Origin: Pseudonocardia sp. CNS-139 | Lineage (GTDB): Bacteria; Actinomycetota; Actinomycetes; Mycobacteriales; Pseudonocardiaceae | NCBI GenBank assembly: GCA_001942415.1 | Contig: MKJX01000033.1 | Location: forward strand, 1-64,000 | DNA: 64,000 nt | Direction of reading: 5' to 3' | Shown here: piece by piece, positions 9,506-14,273 of the stretch | Layout: every line of letters starts with the position of its first letter | Position numbering within the stretch: the first letter of the stretch is position 1 | Notes under the pieces: generated by a model | What the model was told of the DNA's origin: nothing | What the model saw: only the letters and a program-made list of their open reading frames with translations | Databases searched by the model: none | Program-made: the position numbers and the translations under genes

Positions 9506-11177
9506 GTGGCGCTGCGCCCCGACCTGCGCGACGCGGCCATGCGCTGGATCGCCGACGACCCGGACCCGGTGACCCGCCAGGAGCTGCAGCGCGTGCTGGC
9601 CGGGGCCATGGTCGGCACCGCCGGGGCCGCCGAGGAGCTGGCCGACCGCATGTCCGGGCCGCTGCGGTTCGGCACGGCCGGGCTGCGCGGGCCGGTGCGC
9701 GCCGGGCCGTCCGGGATGAACGTCGCGGTCGTGCGCCGGGCGACGGCCGGGCTCGCGGCGTGGCTGGCCCGCGACGGCGCCCGCGGCACGATGCCCGATG
9801 GCGTGCAGGGCACGGTGCCCGATGGCGTGCAGGGCACGGTGCCCGATGGCATGCGGGGCACGGTTGTCGTCGGACGGGACGCGCGGCACGGCTCCGAGGC
9901 GTTCGCCGCGGCCGCGGCCGAGGTGCTGGCCGGCGCCGGGTTCCACGCGCTGATGCTGTCCGAGCCGCAGCCGACGCCCCTGCTGGCCTACGCCGTGCGG
10001 AACGTCGGGGCCGTCGCCGGGGTGCAGATCACGGCGTCGCACAACCCGCCGGCCGACAACGGGTACAAGGTCTACCTCGCCGACGGGGCCCAGCTCGCCC
10101 CGCCGTCCGACGCCGAGATCGAGGCGCGATCGCGGCCGCGCCGGCCGCCGTCGCCGTGCCGACCGCGAACCCGGCCGGCTGGGCCGAGGTCACCGAGCCC
10201 TACCTGGACCGCGTCGCCGTCCTCCCGCGCGGGCCGGCCCGGGGCCTGAAGGTGGCGCTCACGCCGCTGCACGGCGTCGGAGGTGCGATGGCGGTGCACG
10301 CGCTGCACCGGGCCGGGTTCACCGACGTGCACGTCGTCGCGACGCAGGCGGTGCCGGACCCGGACTTCCCGACCGTCGCCTTTCCGAACCCGGAGGAGCC
10401 CGGCGCCACCGACGCGCTGCTCGCGCTCGCCGCCGACGTCGGCGCCGACCTCGCGGTCGCGCTCGACCCGGACGCCGACCGGTGCGCGCTCGCCGTCCCG
10501 ACGCCGGACGGGTGGCGGATGCTCACCGGCGACGAGACCGGCGTGCTGCTCGGCGACCACCTGCTGCGCCACGGCGGGTACACCGACCCGCTCGTCGCGA
10601 CCACCGTCGTCTCGTCGTCGATGCTGCGGTCGGTCGCGGCGGCCTACGGGGCGCGCTACGCCGAGACGCTCACCGGGTTCAAGTGGATCGTCCGCGGCGG
10701 GCCGGGGCTGGTGTTCGGGTACGAGGAGGCGCTCGGCTACTGCGTCGACCCGGACGCCGTACGCGACAAGGACGGGATCGCCGCCGCGGTGCTGGCCGCC
10801 GACCTGGCGGCCGGGCTCAAGGCGGCCGGCGGTGGCCTGCCGACCGGCTCGACGAGCTCGCGCTCGCCCACGGCGTGCACCTCACCGAGGGCGTGTCGCT
10901 GCGGTTGGAACCGGCGGCGCGCGACGCGGCCGCCGCCCGGATCCGCAGCAGTCCTCCGGCGGGCTGGACGGTGGAGCTCCCCGCCCCCGACGTGCTGGTC
11001 CTGCGCCGGCCCGGGGAGCGGCTGGTGGTCCGGCCGAGCGGCACGGAACCCAAGCTCAAGGCGTACCTGGAGGTCGTGGAGCCGGTGGGGGACGAGGGCC
11101 TCGACGCGGCCCGCAAGACAGCCACCACCCGCCTGTCCACCCTGAGAACCGAAGCCCACACCCTCCTCACCCCCTAA
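9506..11177 (+). CDS. pmmB: Phosphohexomutase (phosphoglucomutase/phosphomannomutase, PmmB-like; two frame breaks)
   Basis: An alpha-D-phosphohexomutase of about 557 residues that interconverts sugar 1- and 6-phosphates and may also act on pentose phosphates, as some family members do. Domain signatures run in order: [11 protein letters not shown] at the N-terminus, [16 protein letters not shown] with the phosphorylated Ser, [13 protein letters not shown] (Mg loop), [14 protein letters not shown] (sugar loop) and [16 protein letters not shown] (phosphate loop). Two frame shifts, near 10127 and 10845, each fit one missing base. A tandem 8-residue repeat (9785-9856) is inserted before [10 protein letters not shown]. 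The start is GTG 9506, three bases after the phosphorylase stop. The DUF559 element begins six bases past the stop. Confidence 0.9.
9785..9856 (+). repeat. 24-bp tandem repeat inside the phosphohexomutase
   Basis: Three 24-bp units encode [16 protein letters not shown] and GTVPDGMR, and a fourth partial unit runs into the conserved strand (GTVVVGRD). Units start at 9785, 9809 and 9833 and differ at only a few bases. The repeat keeps the frame and lengthens a surface loop before the domain I strand. Confidence 0.9.
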
Positions 11178-11182
11178 CCACC

Positions 11183-11237
11183 CCCGCGAGTCGCCGAAAA
11201 AGTGCGCGCGAGTCGCTGGATTAGTGCGCGCGAGTTG
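11183..11237 (+). repeat. Left arm of the DUF559 inverted repeat (22-bp units)
   Basis: It contains two full 22-bp units that start CGCGAGTCGC and end GTGCG, with an A-rich (GAAAAA) or ATTA centre, then a third partial unit CGCGAGTTG. These AT-containing centres stand out in the GC-rich background. Confidence 0.85.
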
Positions 11238-11328
11238 TGACGACGGGAGTTGTCCACATCGTGGGTGGGCTGTCCCCAGTTCCGCGGTTCCCCCGGACGA
11301 CCTATCCGGCCCGCCGCATCCTGGCCGC

Positions 11329-12282
11329 ATGGAAGCGATCACCGGCCTCCTGCACGGGGCCATCTCGCGCAAGTCCGCCATCGCGACTCTCGGCGTGCAG
11401 GAGGTGCGGCGGCGCTACGAGTCGGGGGAGTGGATCGTGCCGTGGGCGGGTGCGTTCGTGGAGGCCCCCCGGGCGACCGATCCCCATGCGCTCGCGACCG
11501 CCGCGCTCGTGGTGGCCCGGCCGGGATCCGCGCTGGCCGGGCCTTCGGCCGCGTTCCTCCACGGCTGCCGCGGCGTTGACCCGCTTCCCGTGCACGTGGT
11601 CGTCCCGTACGGCCGGCCCGTGCGGTCCCGGCCGGGTCTCGTCGTGCACAACGCCCGTCCGTTCGACGCCGACCTCGACGAGCGCGACGGGCTGCCCGTG
11701 CTCTGCCTCGGCCGGGTGGTCGCCGACGTGCTGTGCCGCGGTCGTCCCACCGACGCGCTCGCGCTCGCCGACGAGGCGCTGGCGCTGCAGGAGCCCAGCC
11801 GCCGCGACGGCTTCAGGGCGGACGTCGCCGACCGGATAGCGCGGCGCAGCGACCCGCGCGGCACCCGGCGCGGCCTGGCTCTGCTCACGGTTGCGACGGG
11901 CCTGGCCGCCTCACCCGCGGAGAGTTGGTTCCTCTACCGCATCGTGGACGCCGGGTTCCCGGCCCCGGAGGTCAACTGGTCGCTGCGCGACCCTGACGGG
12001 CGCGAGGTCCACCGGCTCGACTACGCGTGGCCGGACCTGCGCATCGCGGTCGAGTACAACGGCTACGCGTTCCACGTCGGACGGGAGGAACGGGATCACG
12101 CACGTGCGGAGGACCTCCGGCGGCGCGGATGGATCGTGATCACTGTGGAGGCCGACGACCTCGCCCGCCCGGACCGGTTCGAGAGAGCGCTCGCCGAGGC
12201 GTTCCTCTGCCGCGGCGTCGACCTCCGGAAGCGGACGTCGCGCGTGCTCCAGGGGCGCCGGCATCGGGAGCGTCCGGCGTAG
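11329..12282 (+). CDS. DUF559 (Vsr-like endonuclease fold) protein with AbiEi-like N-terminus
   Basis: A protein of about 317 residues. The C-terminal 110 residues carry the DUF559 pattern, related to very-short-patch-repair and other PD-(D/E)xK nucleases: ESWFLYRIVDAGFPAPEVNW, HRLDYAWPDLRIAVEYNGYA, then HARAEDLRRRGWIVITVEAD; the acidic D and E-Y-N-G are the likely catalytic set. The N-terminal 150 residues resemble the winged-helix and linker region of type IV AbiEi antitoxin-like proteins (VRRRYESGEWIVPWAGAFVE, then LAGPSAAFLHG). The ATG at 11329 fits this domain start; a longer GTG/ATG extension runs into the left repeat. Such proteins are widespread in actinobacteria and uncharacterised as far as I know. 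The flanking inverted repeats suggest it may recognise them. Confidence 0.75.
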   Translation: MEAITGLLHGAISRKSAIATLGVQEVRRRYESGEWIVPWAGAFVEAPRATDPHALATAALVVARPGSALAGPSAAFLHGCRGVDPLPVHVVVPYGRPVRSRPGLVVHNARPFDADLDERDGLPVLCLGRVVADVLCRGRPTDALALADEALALQEPSRRDGFRADVADRIARRSDPRGTRRGLALLTVATGLAASPAESWFLYRIVDAGFPAPEVNWSLRDPDGREVHRLDYAWPDLRIAVEYNGYAFHVGREERDHARAEDLRRRGWIVITVEADDLARPDRFERALAEAFLCRGVDLRKRTSRVLQGRRHRERPA

Positions 12283-12286
12283 TGCG

Positions 12287-12341
12287 CAACTCGCGCACAC
12301 TTTTCCAGCGACTCGCGCGCAGTTTTTCGGCGACTCGCGGG
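12287..12341 (-). repeat. Right arm of the DUF559 inverted repeat
   Basis: Reverse complement of the left arm with four mismatches. It begins five bases after the gene stop codon (TAG 12280-12282) and ends nine bases before the stop of the next, convergent gene. Confidence 0.85.
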
Positions 12342-12349
12342 TGGGTGGG

Positions 12350-12805
12350 TCAGAGGGACTTGCGGCTGGGGCGGGTGCGGAGGGCGGAGGTGTAGTCGTC
12401 GGGGGCGCCGGCCTGCTCCGCCGCGTCGGCGATCACGCCGAGGTACCGGGCGCTGGGCAACCCGCCCTCGTACGCGTCCAGGACGTAGACCCACGCCAGC
12501 ACGTCGCCGTCGAGGGTGTGCACCCGCAGCCGCAGCTTCTTGTGCAGCCCCAGCTCGCCGCCCTCCCAGCGGTCGAGCTGCGGCGCGTCCAGCACGGAGA
12601 CGTCGTAGAGCACGACGAACACCTGCGACTGGGGGTCCTCGACCACGGTGGAGAGCGCGCCCTCCCACCCGTAGTCCTCGCCGCCGAACGTCAGACGCCA
12701 GCCCATGAGCCACCCCGTGCCGATCATCGGCGAGTGCGGGGCCCGCTCCTTCATCTGGCCGGGATCCATGTTCGACCCGTAGGCGGCGTACAGCGGCACC
12801 GCCAC
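12350..12805 (-). CDS. Gamma-glutamylcyclotransferase-like protein
   Basis: A 151-residue protein of the GGCT/AIG2 fold, whose characterised members release 5-oxoproline from gamma-glutamyl amines. The nucleotide-like loop YAAYGSNMDPGQM and the following GWRLTFGGEDYGWEGALSTV region with an acidic residue match the family. The start is taken as GTG 12805 (MAVPLYAAYGSN), because the fold begins at once; longer frames are low-complexity. A gene of this kind (Rv3304) also lies beside lpdA in M. tuberculosis. The substrate is not established. It diverges from lpdA across 66 bases. Confidence 0.82.
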   Translation of the reverse strand: MAVPLYAAYGSNMDPGQMKERAPHSPMIGTGWLMGWRLTFGGEDYGWEGALSTVVEDPQSQVFVVLYDVSVLDAPQLDRWEGGELGLHKKLRLRVHTLDGDVLAWVYVLDAYEGGLPSARYLGVIADAAEQAGAPDDYTSALRTRPSRKSL

Positions 12806-12871
12806 AGAGTAGAGCGGTCTCCGGCGCGTACCGTGCTGGGGGAACCGGACGAAGCGCGGAGGAGCACCCAC

Positions 12872-14273
12872 TTGACCCGGATCGTGATCATGGGCGGGGG
12901 CCCCGCGGGGTACGAGGCGGCGCTGGTCGCGGCCCAGCACGGCAGTGACGTCACCGTGGTCGAGCGCGACGGGATGGGCGGTGCGTGTGTGCTGGACGAC
13001 TGCGTTCCGTCGAAGACGTTCATCTCCTCGGCCGGGGTCCGGGTCGAGATGCACCGGGCGCTGACCTGGGTGTGACGGCCGACCAGAAGGCGATCGGCGT
13101 CGATCTGCCCACGGTGCACGCCCGGGTGAAGGGGCTGGCGCTGGCTCAGTCGGCGGATGTCCGGGCGCGGGTGGAGCGGGAGGGGGTGCGGATCGTGCGG
13201 GGCACGGCCGCGTTCACCGATGAGCCCTCGGCGCGCGCGCGCACCTGGTGGAGGTCCGCCTGCAGGACGGCTCCCGGGAGGAGCTGCCGGCCGATGTCGT
13301 GCTGGTCGCGACCGGCGCCACGCCGCGGGTGCTGCCCGACGCCGTCCCGGACGGGGAGCGCATCCTGACCTGGCGGCAGCTGTATGACCTGCAGGAGCTG
13401 CCCGAGCATCTGGTCGTGGTGGGTTCGGGGGTGACGGGCGCGGAGTTCGTCTCGGCGTACGTCGAGATGGGCGCGCAGGTCACGCTCGTGTCCAGCCGTG
13501 ACCGCGTGCTGCCCGGTGAGGACGCGGACGCGGCCGCGGTGTTGCAGGACGTGTTCGCCGAGCGCGGTGTGCGGATCCTGTCGCAGGCCCGCGCGGACTC
13601 GGTGGAGCGTGATGGTGACGGGGTGCTCGTCACGCTGGCCGACGGCCGCACGGTGAGCGGGTCGCACGCGTTGATGACGGTCGGCTCGGTGCCCAACACC
13701 ACCGGTATCGGGCTGGAGAAGATCGGTGTCGAGACCGGTCGCGGCGGGTTCATCCCGGTCGACCGGGTCTCGCGGACGTCGGTGCCGGGTGTCTACGCGG
13801 CGGGTGACTGCACGGGTGTGCTGATGCTGGCGTCGGTGGCGGCGATGCAGGGCCGGATCGCGATGTGGCACGCGTTGGGCGAGGGTGTGGCGCCGATCAA
13901 GCTGAAGACGGTGGCGGCGGCGGTGTTCACCCGGCCGGAGATCGCGACGGTCGGGATCAGCCAGCGCGCGATCGACGCGGGTGAGGTGCCGGCCCGCACG
14001 ATCATGCTGCCGCTCTCGACGAACCCGCGGGCGAAGATGCAGGGGCTGCGCCGCGGGTTCGTGAAGCTGTTCTGCCGCCCGGCCACGGGTGTGGTGGTCG
14101 GCGGGGTGGTGGTGGCGCCGGTGGCCAGTGAGCTGATCCTGCCGATCGCGCTCGCCGTGCAGAACGGGCTGACGGTGGCCGATCTGGCGCACACGTTCTC
14201 GGTCTACCCGTCGCTGTCGGGGTCGATCACCGAGGCGGGTCGCCAGCTGATGCGCCACGGAGATCTCGACTGA
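12872..14273 (+). CDS. lpdA: NAD(P)H:quinone dehydrogenase of the LpdA type (two frame breaks)
   Basis: A flavoprotein of about 467 residues in the pyridine-nucleotide disulfide reductase family. It shows the FAD loop IVIMGGGPAGYEAALVAAQ, GGACVLDDCVPSKTFI with a C-x4-C pair, NAD loop VVVGSGVTGAEFVSAYVEMG, and GVYAAGDCTGVLMLASVAA. The C-terminal His-Glu dyad of true lipoamide dehydrogenases is absent: the usual H-P-T-x-x-E is replaced by VYPSLSGSITEAG. That fits M. tuberculosis LpdA (Rv3303c), a quinone reductase and not a lipoamide dehydrogenase. Start TTG 12872 is set by GGAGGAG at 12858-12864. Frame changes near 13066 and 13238 each fit one missing base. Confidence 0.9.

Follow-up and report, generated by a model that had tools for sequence, protein, structure and literature searches.

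In REPtrons, as described, inverted repeats border a single enzyme gene and recur elsewhere in the genome, mostly in extragenic DNA and often near 3' ends; in the accessible text of the sources, the enzyme and the repeat co-evolve (PMC8266576, PMC3733652). TIRtrons are represented there by a RAYT-like gene between other terminal inverted repeats, possibly of a repeat family (PMC3733652, accessible part). REP-like repeats are common, and the dedicated enzymes named in the accessible text of this literature are HuH tyrosine transposases only. Binding to inverted repeats of 23 bp is described for AbiEi, the antitoxin of the type IV system AbiE, and for a relative from mycobacteria in the accessible part of PMC7319586. 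The family name EDxHD, applied to the homing endonuclease I-Bth0305I, follows PMC6083498, and for VsrA, a DUF559 protein of Caulobacter, the accessible text of PMC12907096 describes an action that damages DNA when methylation is missing.

The locus analysed here lies in a stretch of 64,000 nucleotides from Pseudonocardia sp. CNS-139, hereafter the window, and its features are given in Table 1. Similar to REPtrons, it contains an enzyme gene, in this case of a nuclease, flanked by inverted copies of a genome-dispersed repeat; it differs in the AbiEi-like part and the Vsr/EDxHD-type nuclease, predicted in place of the HuH tyrosine transposase, in polar tandem arrays of 21/22-bp units in place of single GTAG-tagged hairpins, and in the occurrence of the nuclease–array system, found here in Pseudonocardiaceae. 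It appears to work like a REPtron but is not one, since the defining transposase is absent. TIRtrons are similar in that inverted repeats, which may be members of a repeat family, enclose a gene, but their tyrosine transposase is unrelated to the nuclease protein. The AbiEi antitoxin is resembled in the N-terminal and middle parts, which match AbiEi models, whereas the C-terminal nuclease and the repeats, which border the gene at either end and occur throughout the genome, set the two apart; the neighbours of the gene in the window are pmmB and GGCT, with no AbiEii nucleotidyltransferase seen beside it there. I-Bth0305I and Vsr share the predicted fold of the C-terminal domain and the E-D-x-H-D residue set; however, the gene is not intron-encoded, no methyltransferase was seen adjoining it in the window, and its protein has an additional AbiEi-like part and is tied to repeats. 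VsrA has in common a DUF559 domain of the Vsr-like superfamily, but is linked to cytosine methylation, and no repeats are reported with it in the accessible text (PMC12907096). No description of the nuclease–array association was found in the literature searched, the scope of which excluded most subscription papers and preprints.

Table 1. Features of the nuclease locus, in window positions.
Feature	Position	Strand	Remarks
Left neighbour, pmmB, C-terminal part	10482..11177	+	stop codon, ending at 11177, towards left arm
Left arm	11183..11237	+	two full units (11185-11206, 11207-11228), start of a third at 11229
Left arm polarity			CCC head outward; GAGTT tail gene-ward
DnaA-box-like site TTGTCCACA	11250..11258	+	sole exact TTRTCCACA in the 64-kb window, both strands
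Degenerate partner of DnaA-box-like site, CTGTCCCCA	11270-11278
Nuclease gene	11329..12282	+	AbiEi-like / Vsr-like nuclease protein (predicted), 317 aa
AbiEi-like N-terminal and middle part (putative)	11329..11898	+	about residues 1-190; PADLOC AbiEi E 2.3e-10
Vsr/EDxHD-type nuclease domain (predicted)	11911..12213	+	about residues 195-295
Right arm	12287..12341	-	left arm inverted, 51/55 bases
Right neighbour, gamma-glutamylcyclotransferase-like (GGCT) gene	12350..12820	-	stop codon, beginning at 12350 on +, towards right arm

The inverted arms of 22-bp units and the fit of the element between two convergent stop codons without a transposase, both described in the earlier note, were confirmed: each arm of 55 nt consists of two full units and the start of a third, the arms are 93% complementary and separated by 1049 nt, and the stops lie 5 and 8 bases from them. 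The match score of the arms (ungapped local match, +1/-2) is 43, compared with 11 in the best of 20 shuffles, and together with offset controls this rules out a chance repeat. The nuclease gene is intact between the arms; besides the ATG start, a GTG start at 11224 would give a protein of 352 aa. No transposase gene was found between the arms, and visual inspection of the window arms and of the dispersed element of locus L106 revealed no target-site duplication, so that the window element lacks these hallmarks of insertion sequences and MITEs. The window has no Rfam match, and a known RNA element was therefore dropped as the identity of the arms. No partner toxin or defence gene was seen adjoining the nuclease gene in the window. 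The genes pmmB (9506-11177) and an lpdA-like gene (12873-14273) appear to be split across reading frames, possibly as a result of assembly errors in the draft genome, which is 78.5% complete.

The name DUF559, given to the protein in the earlier note, holds for the family rather than for this member: the window protein scores below the Pfam cut-off (E 0.0027, 18.0 bits; cut-off 20.6), whereas 64/66 aligned homologues match DUF559 at E <= 0.01. The Pfam matches are DUF559 and MTES_1575, with no HuH tyrosine transposase. The suggested AbiEi-like N-terminus was borne out by the PADLOC AbiEi models, which match all 66 homologues at E <= 0.01 as sequence profiles only, and the 23-bp inverted repeats bound by AbiEi fit the unit of 21-22 bp. 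Residues E198, D231, E242, H249 and D256 are invariant in the 66 sequences, and E198, D231, H249 and D256 are, by our own assignment, the putative E-D-x-H-D set. In the AlphaFold2 model built on the 66 sequences (pLDDT 93.7), the best solved fold is the catalytic domain of I-Bth0305I (E 0.0076, probability 1.00; TM 0.68-0.72 depending on target length), with no fold match below E 0.001. Profiles and model suggest that a putative AbiEi-like DNA-binding part is joined to a predicted Vsr/EDxHD-type nuclease.

Upstream of the gene, the motif TTRTCCACA, which we take to be a putative DnaA box, was found within 260 bp in 58/78 genes and in 2/2198 background windows; in 37 genes it is doubled, at a distance of 17-20 bp and in most cases 19-20 bp. 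These paired sites are located between the left arm and the start codon and are absent from the Saccharothrix/Lentzea/Umezawaea group.

The earlier note had called for a search of related genomes for repeat-flanked homologues and for a comparison of loci with and without the element, and had named three observations that would speak against an element: homologues rarely flanked by repeats, a locus never empty in relatives, and the same arms widespread with no gene between them. The own-family search gave matches in 153/200 genomes. Flanking inverted repeats well above shuffles were found in 27 of the 29 best other loci, 17/27 further loci of the window's genus score at least 18 (the misses include five loci cut by contig ends, hence not fairly tested, and one gene fragment), and 65/80 named Pseudonocardiaceae loci lie between inverted repeats scoring at least 18; the three sets overlap in organisms. 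Flanked homologues are thus the rule. The 80 named loci, the best 80 of 103 found with an alignment query (an earlier single-protein scan of named genome contigs, unlike this query, found none), span Pseudonocardia, Amycolatopsis, Saccharothrix, Kibdelosporangium, Prauserella, Saccharomonospora, Actinophytocola and others. Offset-region controls, available for 75 of the 80 loci, reach a maximum of 14, none attaining 18. Nearly all flanking repeats of the Pseudonocardiaceae loci are arrays of 21/22-bp units, while that of L119 is a different palindrome, and copies located away from GGCT are flanked too, e.g., L076, L080, L085 and L114. Units were extracted in 73/81 loci, in 70 from both arms; the tandem spacing is 22 bp in 148 cases and 21 bp in 102, and the consensus is CGWGTY-N5-YTC, the core GWGTY of which is partly a product of construction, because the extraction seed demands it, although an unseeded comparison also shows it.

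The units are not confined to the gene. The 10-base unit core CGCGAGTCGC has 231 + 231 = 462 matches in the 7.1-Mb draft genome, compared with 35 + 40 = 75 for the reversed pattern, while the nuclease gene family is single-copy there, the next match having E 0.006. In 307 kb of regions chosen around core matches, 22 arrays were found; these are short, polar, often palindromic and often located near 3' ends of genes. Many consist of reverse units, GGG, a short loop, CCC and forward units, forming a palindrome. CC precedes the first unit of a run in 33/37 cases and later units in 0/65, and at homologue genes it precedes outermost units in 67/127 cases versus 64/319 for inner ones (p 4e-11). At the nuclease gene, unit heads face outward, and a dispersed palindrome resembles what a head-to-head fusion of the element's outer ends would give; on this polarity rests the hypothesis of a circular intermediate. 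Twelve of the 22 sampled elements lie at most 80 bp from a facing stop codon, compared with 8.7% of random positions; this distance test was used instead of GC3 gene calling, which performed poorly (10/22 elements apparently overlapping ORFs). Arms are therefore widespread without a gene between them, just as the third adverse observation was worded, but the other two were not borne out, and copies that are both widespread and correlated with the gene are to be expected of a REP-like family.

Such tracking was observed across genomes. By three tandem patterns, with thresholds (70, 140, 100) chosen after the counts were known, 58/200 genomes are array-rich: 51 of these have a close homologue of the gene and 7 do not, while 28 genomes with and 114 without it are not rich (79 versus 121 genomes; odds ratio 30, p 1e-19, uncorrected for kinship). 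Among the 13 genera holding both gene states, genus g39 included, gene-bearing genomes have more arrays per Mb than gene-less ones in 12/13 by medians (sign test 0.003) and in 13/13 by means; in genus g19 the per-Mb median is reversed, and five of its six gene-bearing genomes have no excess. Genome G019 of this genus has 1194 GAGTC tandem pairs compared with 35 in the control, by far the most of the 200 genomes. In the window's genus, the count surpasses 1.5 times the control in 13/26 genomes with the gene and in 0/14 without it. Sister species that lack the gene have fewer dispersed, unlinked arrays.

Among the seven array-rich genomes without a close gene (G004, G093, G111, G009, G099, G131 and G181), G004 retains arms, G093 and G111 contain gene fragments and G009 a partial match; no gene trace was found in G099, G131 and G181. 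Predictions made beforehand for the GAGTT type succeeded in part: G125 is clearly and G086 weakly rich, G016, G055 and G032 are not, and the gene-less G108 is low in GAGTT pairs, as predicted. All 12 genomes with at least 100 GAGTT pairs carry the gene, the control being equally high in G032.

Inverted arms are absent from homologues reduced to the AbiEi-like part (0/20, best score 11), and none of the 29 genomes in which the best match does not extend into the nuclease domain is array-rich; ORF ends were checked for 20 of these 29. In this comparison, L190 shows 22-bp periodicity on a single flank.

The unit sequence differs among species. Its distance correlates with protein distance given GGCT (partial Mantel 0.327, 0/2000 permutations) and not with GGCT distance given the protein (-0.13) in 50 loci, all with GGCT adjoining the nuclease gene; the unit thus seems to track the nuclease protein beyond the equally linked GGCT. 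Because of the linkage between arms and gene, this result by itself does not distinguish co-evolution from inheritance of gene and arms together, although GGCT is linked as well. In an unlinked test, the flank type, GAGTC or GTGTC, predicts the genome-wide array type (p 4e-5) in the 23 of 29 genomes labelled, by eye and not blind; G192, G022, G014, G032, G029 and G164, with other or mixed flank types, were left out. In G164 (L037), the gene flanks are of the GAGAT type, yet GTGTC-type arrays are rich genome-wide. Six same-genome copy pairs share 7-14 of 20 unit bases, the median of all pairs being 11; some paralogue pairs share as much of the unit as unrelated loci do, which counts against the partnership proposed below. 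The culturable Pseudonocardia hydrocarbonoxydans, for instance, has two paralogues (L013, in G122, and L080) with two unit types.

GGCT adjoins the nuclease gene in 61/80 loci, and in 8 of these 61 the gene is flipped between the arms. Parsimony on the protein tree gives at least 4 flips and at least 9 changes of place, the latter of which may partly reflect old paralogy. A short GGCT gap is frequent among 21 genomes without the gene, at least 8 of them showing 12-93 bp to a neighbour that is presumably amidohydrolase-like. G004 keeps two inverted arms at this gap, the gene being absent; G015 has only a box pair and G064 array remnants. The proposed comparison of loci with and without the element thus yielded short empty gaps, arms alone and remnants, and the locus is empty in some relatives. 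Both empty and occupied GGCT gaps exist, with no precise junction or target rule seen, and no exact insertion junction or target-site duplication was found at the loci compared. The minimal mobile unit proposed in the earlier note is upheld only in part, as 61/80 copies remain next to GGCT and a precise insertion junction was not found.

In L042, L043 and L061, the gene downstream of lpdA is located on the other side of the nuclease gene, which points to an inversion with end points in the arrays. L106 contains a dispersed palindrome behind a gene that we take to be lpdA-like; the palindrome is missing at the matching place in L070, L071, L077, L078, L083, L084, L086 and L097. That L106 (array), L071/L097 (empty) and L042/L043/L061 (gene) represent one lpdA site in three states was rejected, because the nuclease gene in L042, L043 and L061 still adjoins GGCT and it is the neighbour order that changed. 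Relatives of the nuclease gene were found in none of 72,556 plasmids, 50,697 phages or the viral contigs searched, and on this basis a phage or plasmid origin was rejected.

Layout, dispersal and the gene–array association are given by the comparison itself, and their probable explanation, in our judgement, is a REPtron-like enzyme-and-repeat partnership built on an unrelated enzyme; we infer that the nuclease protein recognizes, cuts and spreads the arrays. The AbiEi-like part would recognize the species-specific unit CGWGTY-N5-YTC through contacts one helical turn apart, the units being two turns apart, and several protein molecules could line one face of the array. The nuclease would nick or cut at or beside arrays, and repair or strand transfer would then copy, lengthen and invert array DNA; the arrays would spread while the nuclease gene stays mostly single-copy, and new array copies may be products of repair or may derive from joined ends or a circular form. 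The DnaA-box-like pair may tie expression of the gene to replication. The idea of the earlier note, a nuclease that may recognize its own terminal repeats in a RAYT-like logic, finds agreement in the flanking arrays, the protein-tracking unit, the gene–array association, the empty gaps and gene-less remnants and the AbiEi-like N-terminus, with mobility only partly borne out. A wider proposal is offered tentatively, with slightly less than even confidence: an undescribed class of enzyme and repeat in Actinomycetota, in which an AbiEi-guided Vsr-like nuclease, expressed in time with replication by way of DnaA boxes, would make, spread and maintain its own polar tandem-unit arrays along the chromosome and use them to reshuffle genes.

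Some of the observed pattern would also be expected from a regulator whose operators are dispersed. In this alternative, which we regard as unlikely, an autoregulated DNA-binding protein would have the arms as operators and the genome-wide arrays as binding sites useful to the host, for insulating 3' ends, for termination or for nucleoid architecture; the nuclease domain would have a side role and the arrays would decay neutrally after loss of the protein. It predicts the same gene–array association and agrees with the location of the dispersed elements near facing stops and with the autoregulation of AbiEi through 23-bp inverted repeats (PMC7319586, accessible part); however, the inverted arrays stand on both sides of the gene, downstream too, AbiEi-only homologues have no arms, the active-site residues are invariant, and arrays take part in flips and a rearrangement. 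Passive repeats, in which some unrelated activity would have spread terminators or REP-like hairpins and the gene would merely reside in a repeat-rich gap, are already disfavoured and very unlikely. In their favour, arrays are widespread without a gene between, most copies share the one gap beside GGCT, and 28 of the 79 genomes that have a close homologue do not count as array-rich in the three patterns; against them, the unit tracks the protein and not GGCT, the association holds within genera, nuclease-less homologues have no arms, and the non-GGCT copies named above are flanked as well. Scarcely credible is the self-marked defence gene of the earlier note, in which arrays would label self DNA and the nuclease would attack incoming DNA. 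The AbiEi-like part and its PADLOC matches speak for it, but these matches reflect a domain rather than a whole system, no partner toxin or defence gene was seen next to the nuclease gene in the window, and the plasmids, phages and viral contigs gave no match; no result supports this reading.

A repeat family appears to belong to a DUF559 enzyme unrelated to the HuH transposases, and the findings suggest an enzyme-and-repeat partnership of a novel type that shapes bacterial chromosomes. A natural test set is formed by protein/unit pairs specific to dozens of species, by sister species that have or lack the gene, by same-genome paralogues with different units and by nuclease-less homologues without arms; with it, the role of DUF559 and the question of how dispersed repeats arise in GC-rich bacteria become directly testable. 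Under the wider proposal, DUF559-type proteins of the AbiEi-plus-nuclease build would gain a role, and, if the activity is real, they would be programmable-looking sequence-specific nucleases with targets readable from the flanks. Other DUF559-type genes of the phylum located between unrelated inverted or palindromic repeats would represent further branches.

Remote relatives were found in 48/396 genomes of other families of the phylum. Unrelated flanking inverted repeats are present in 9 of the 29 loci fetched, a set of 29 in which L246, L248 and L250 had badly set coordinates, and in 0/87 control pairs, as well as in 8/19 remote own-family paralogues; that all DUF559 genes carry such arrays was rejected, as remote relatives show other repeats or none. 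DUF559-type genes between unrelated inverted or palindromic repeats were seen in L222, L223, L224, L226, L227, L230, L232, L233 (arms of 77 bp), L237, L239, L245 and L247, belonging to other genera and families. One such repeat has tens of copies at most: GAGCGTGCGNGTT occurs in 21 dispersed copies, compared with 0 in the control, in G622 of the order Mycobacteriales, where several copies form opposed pairs and one lies about 100 bp from a DUF559-type gene.
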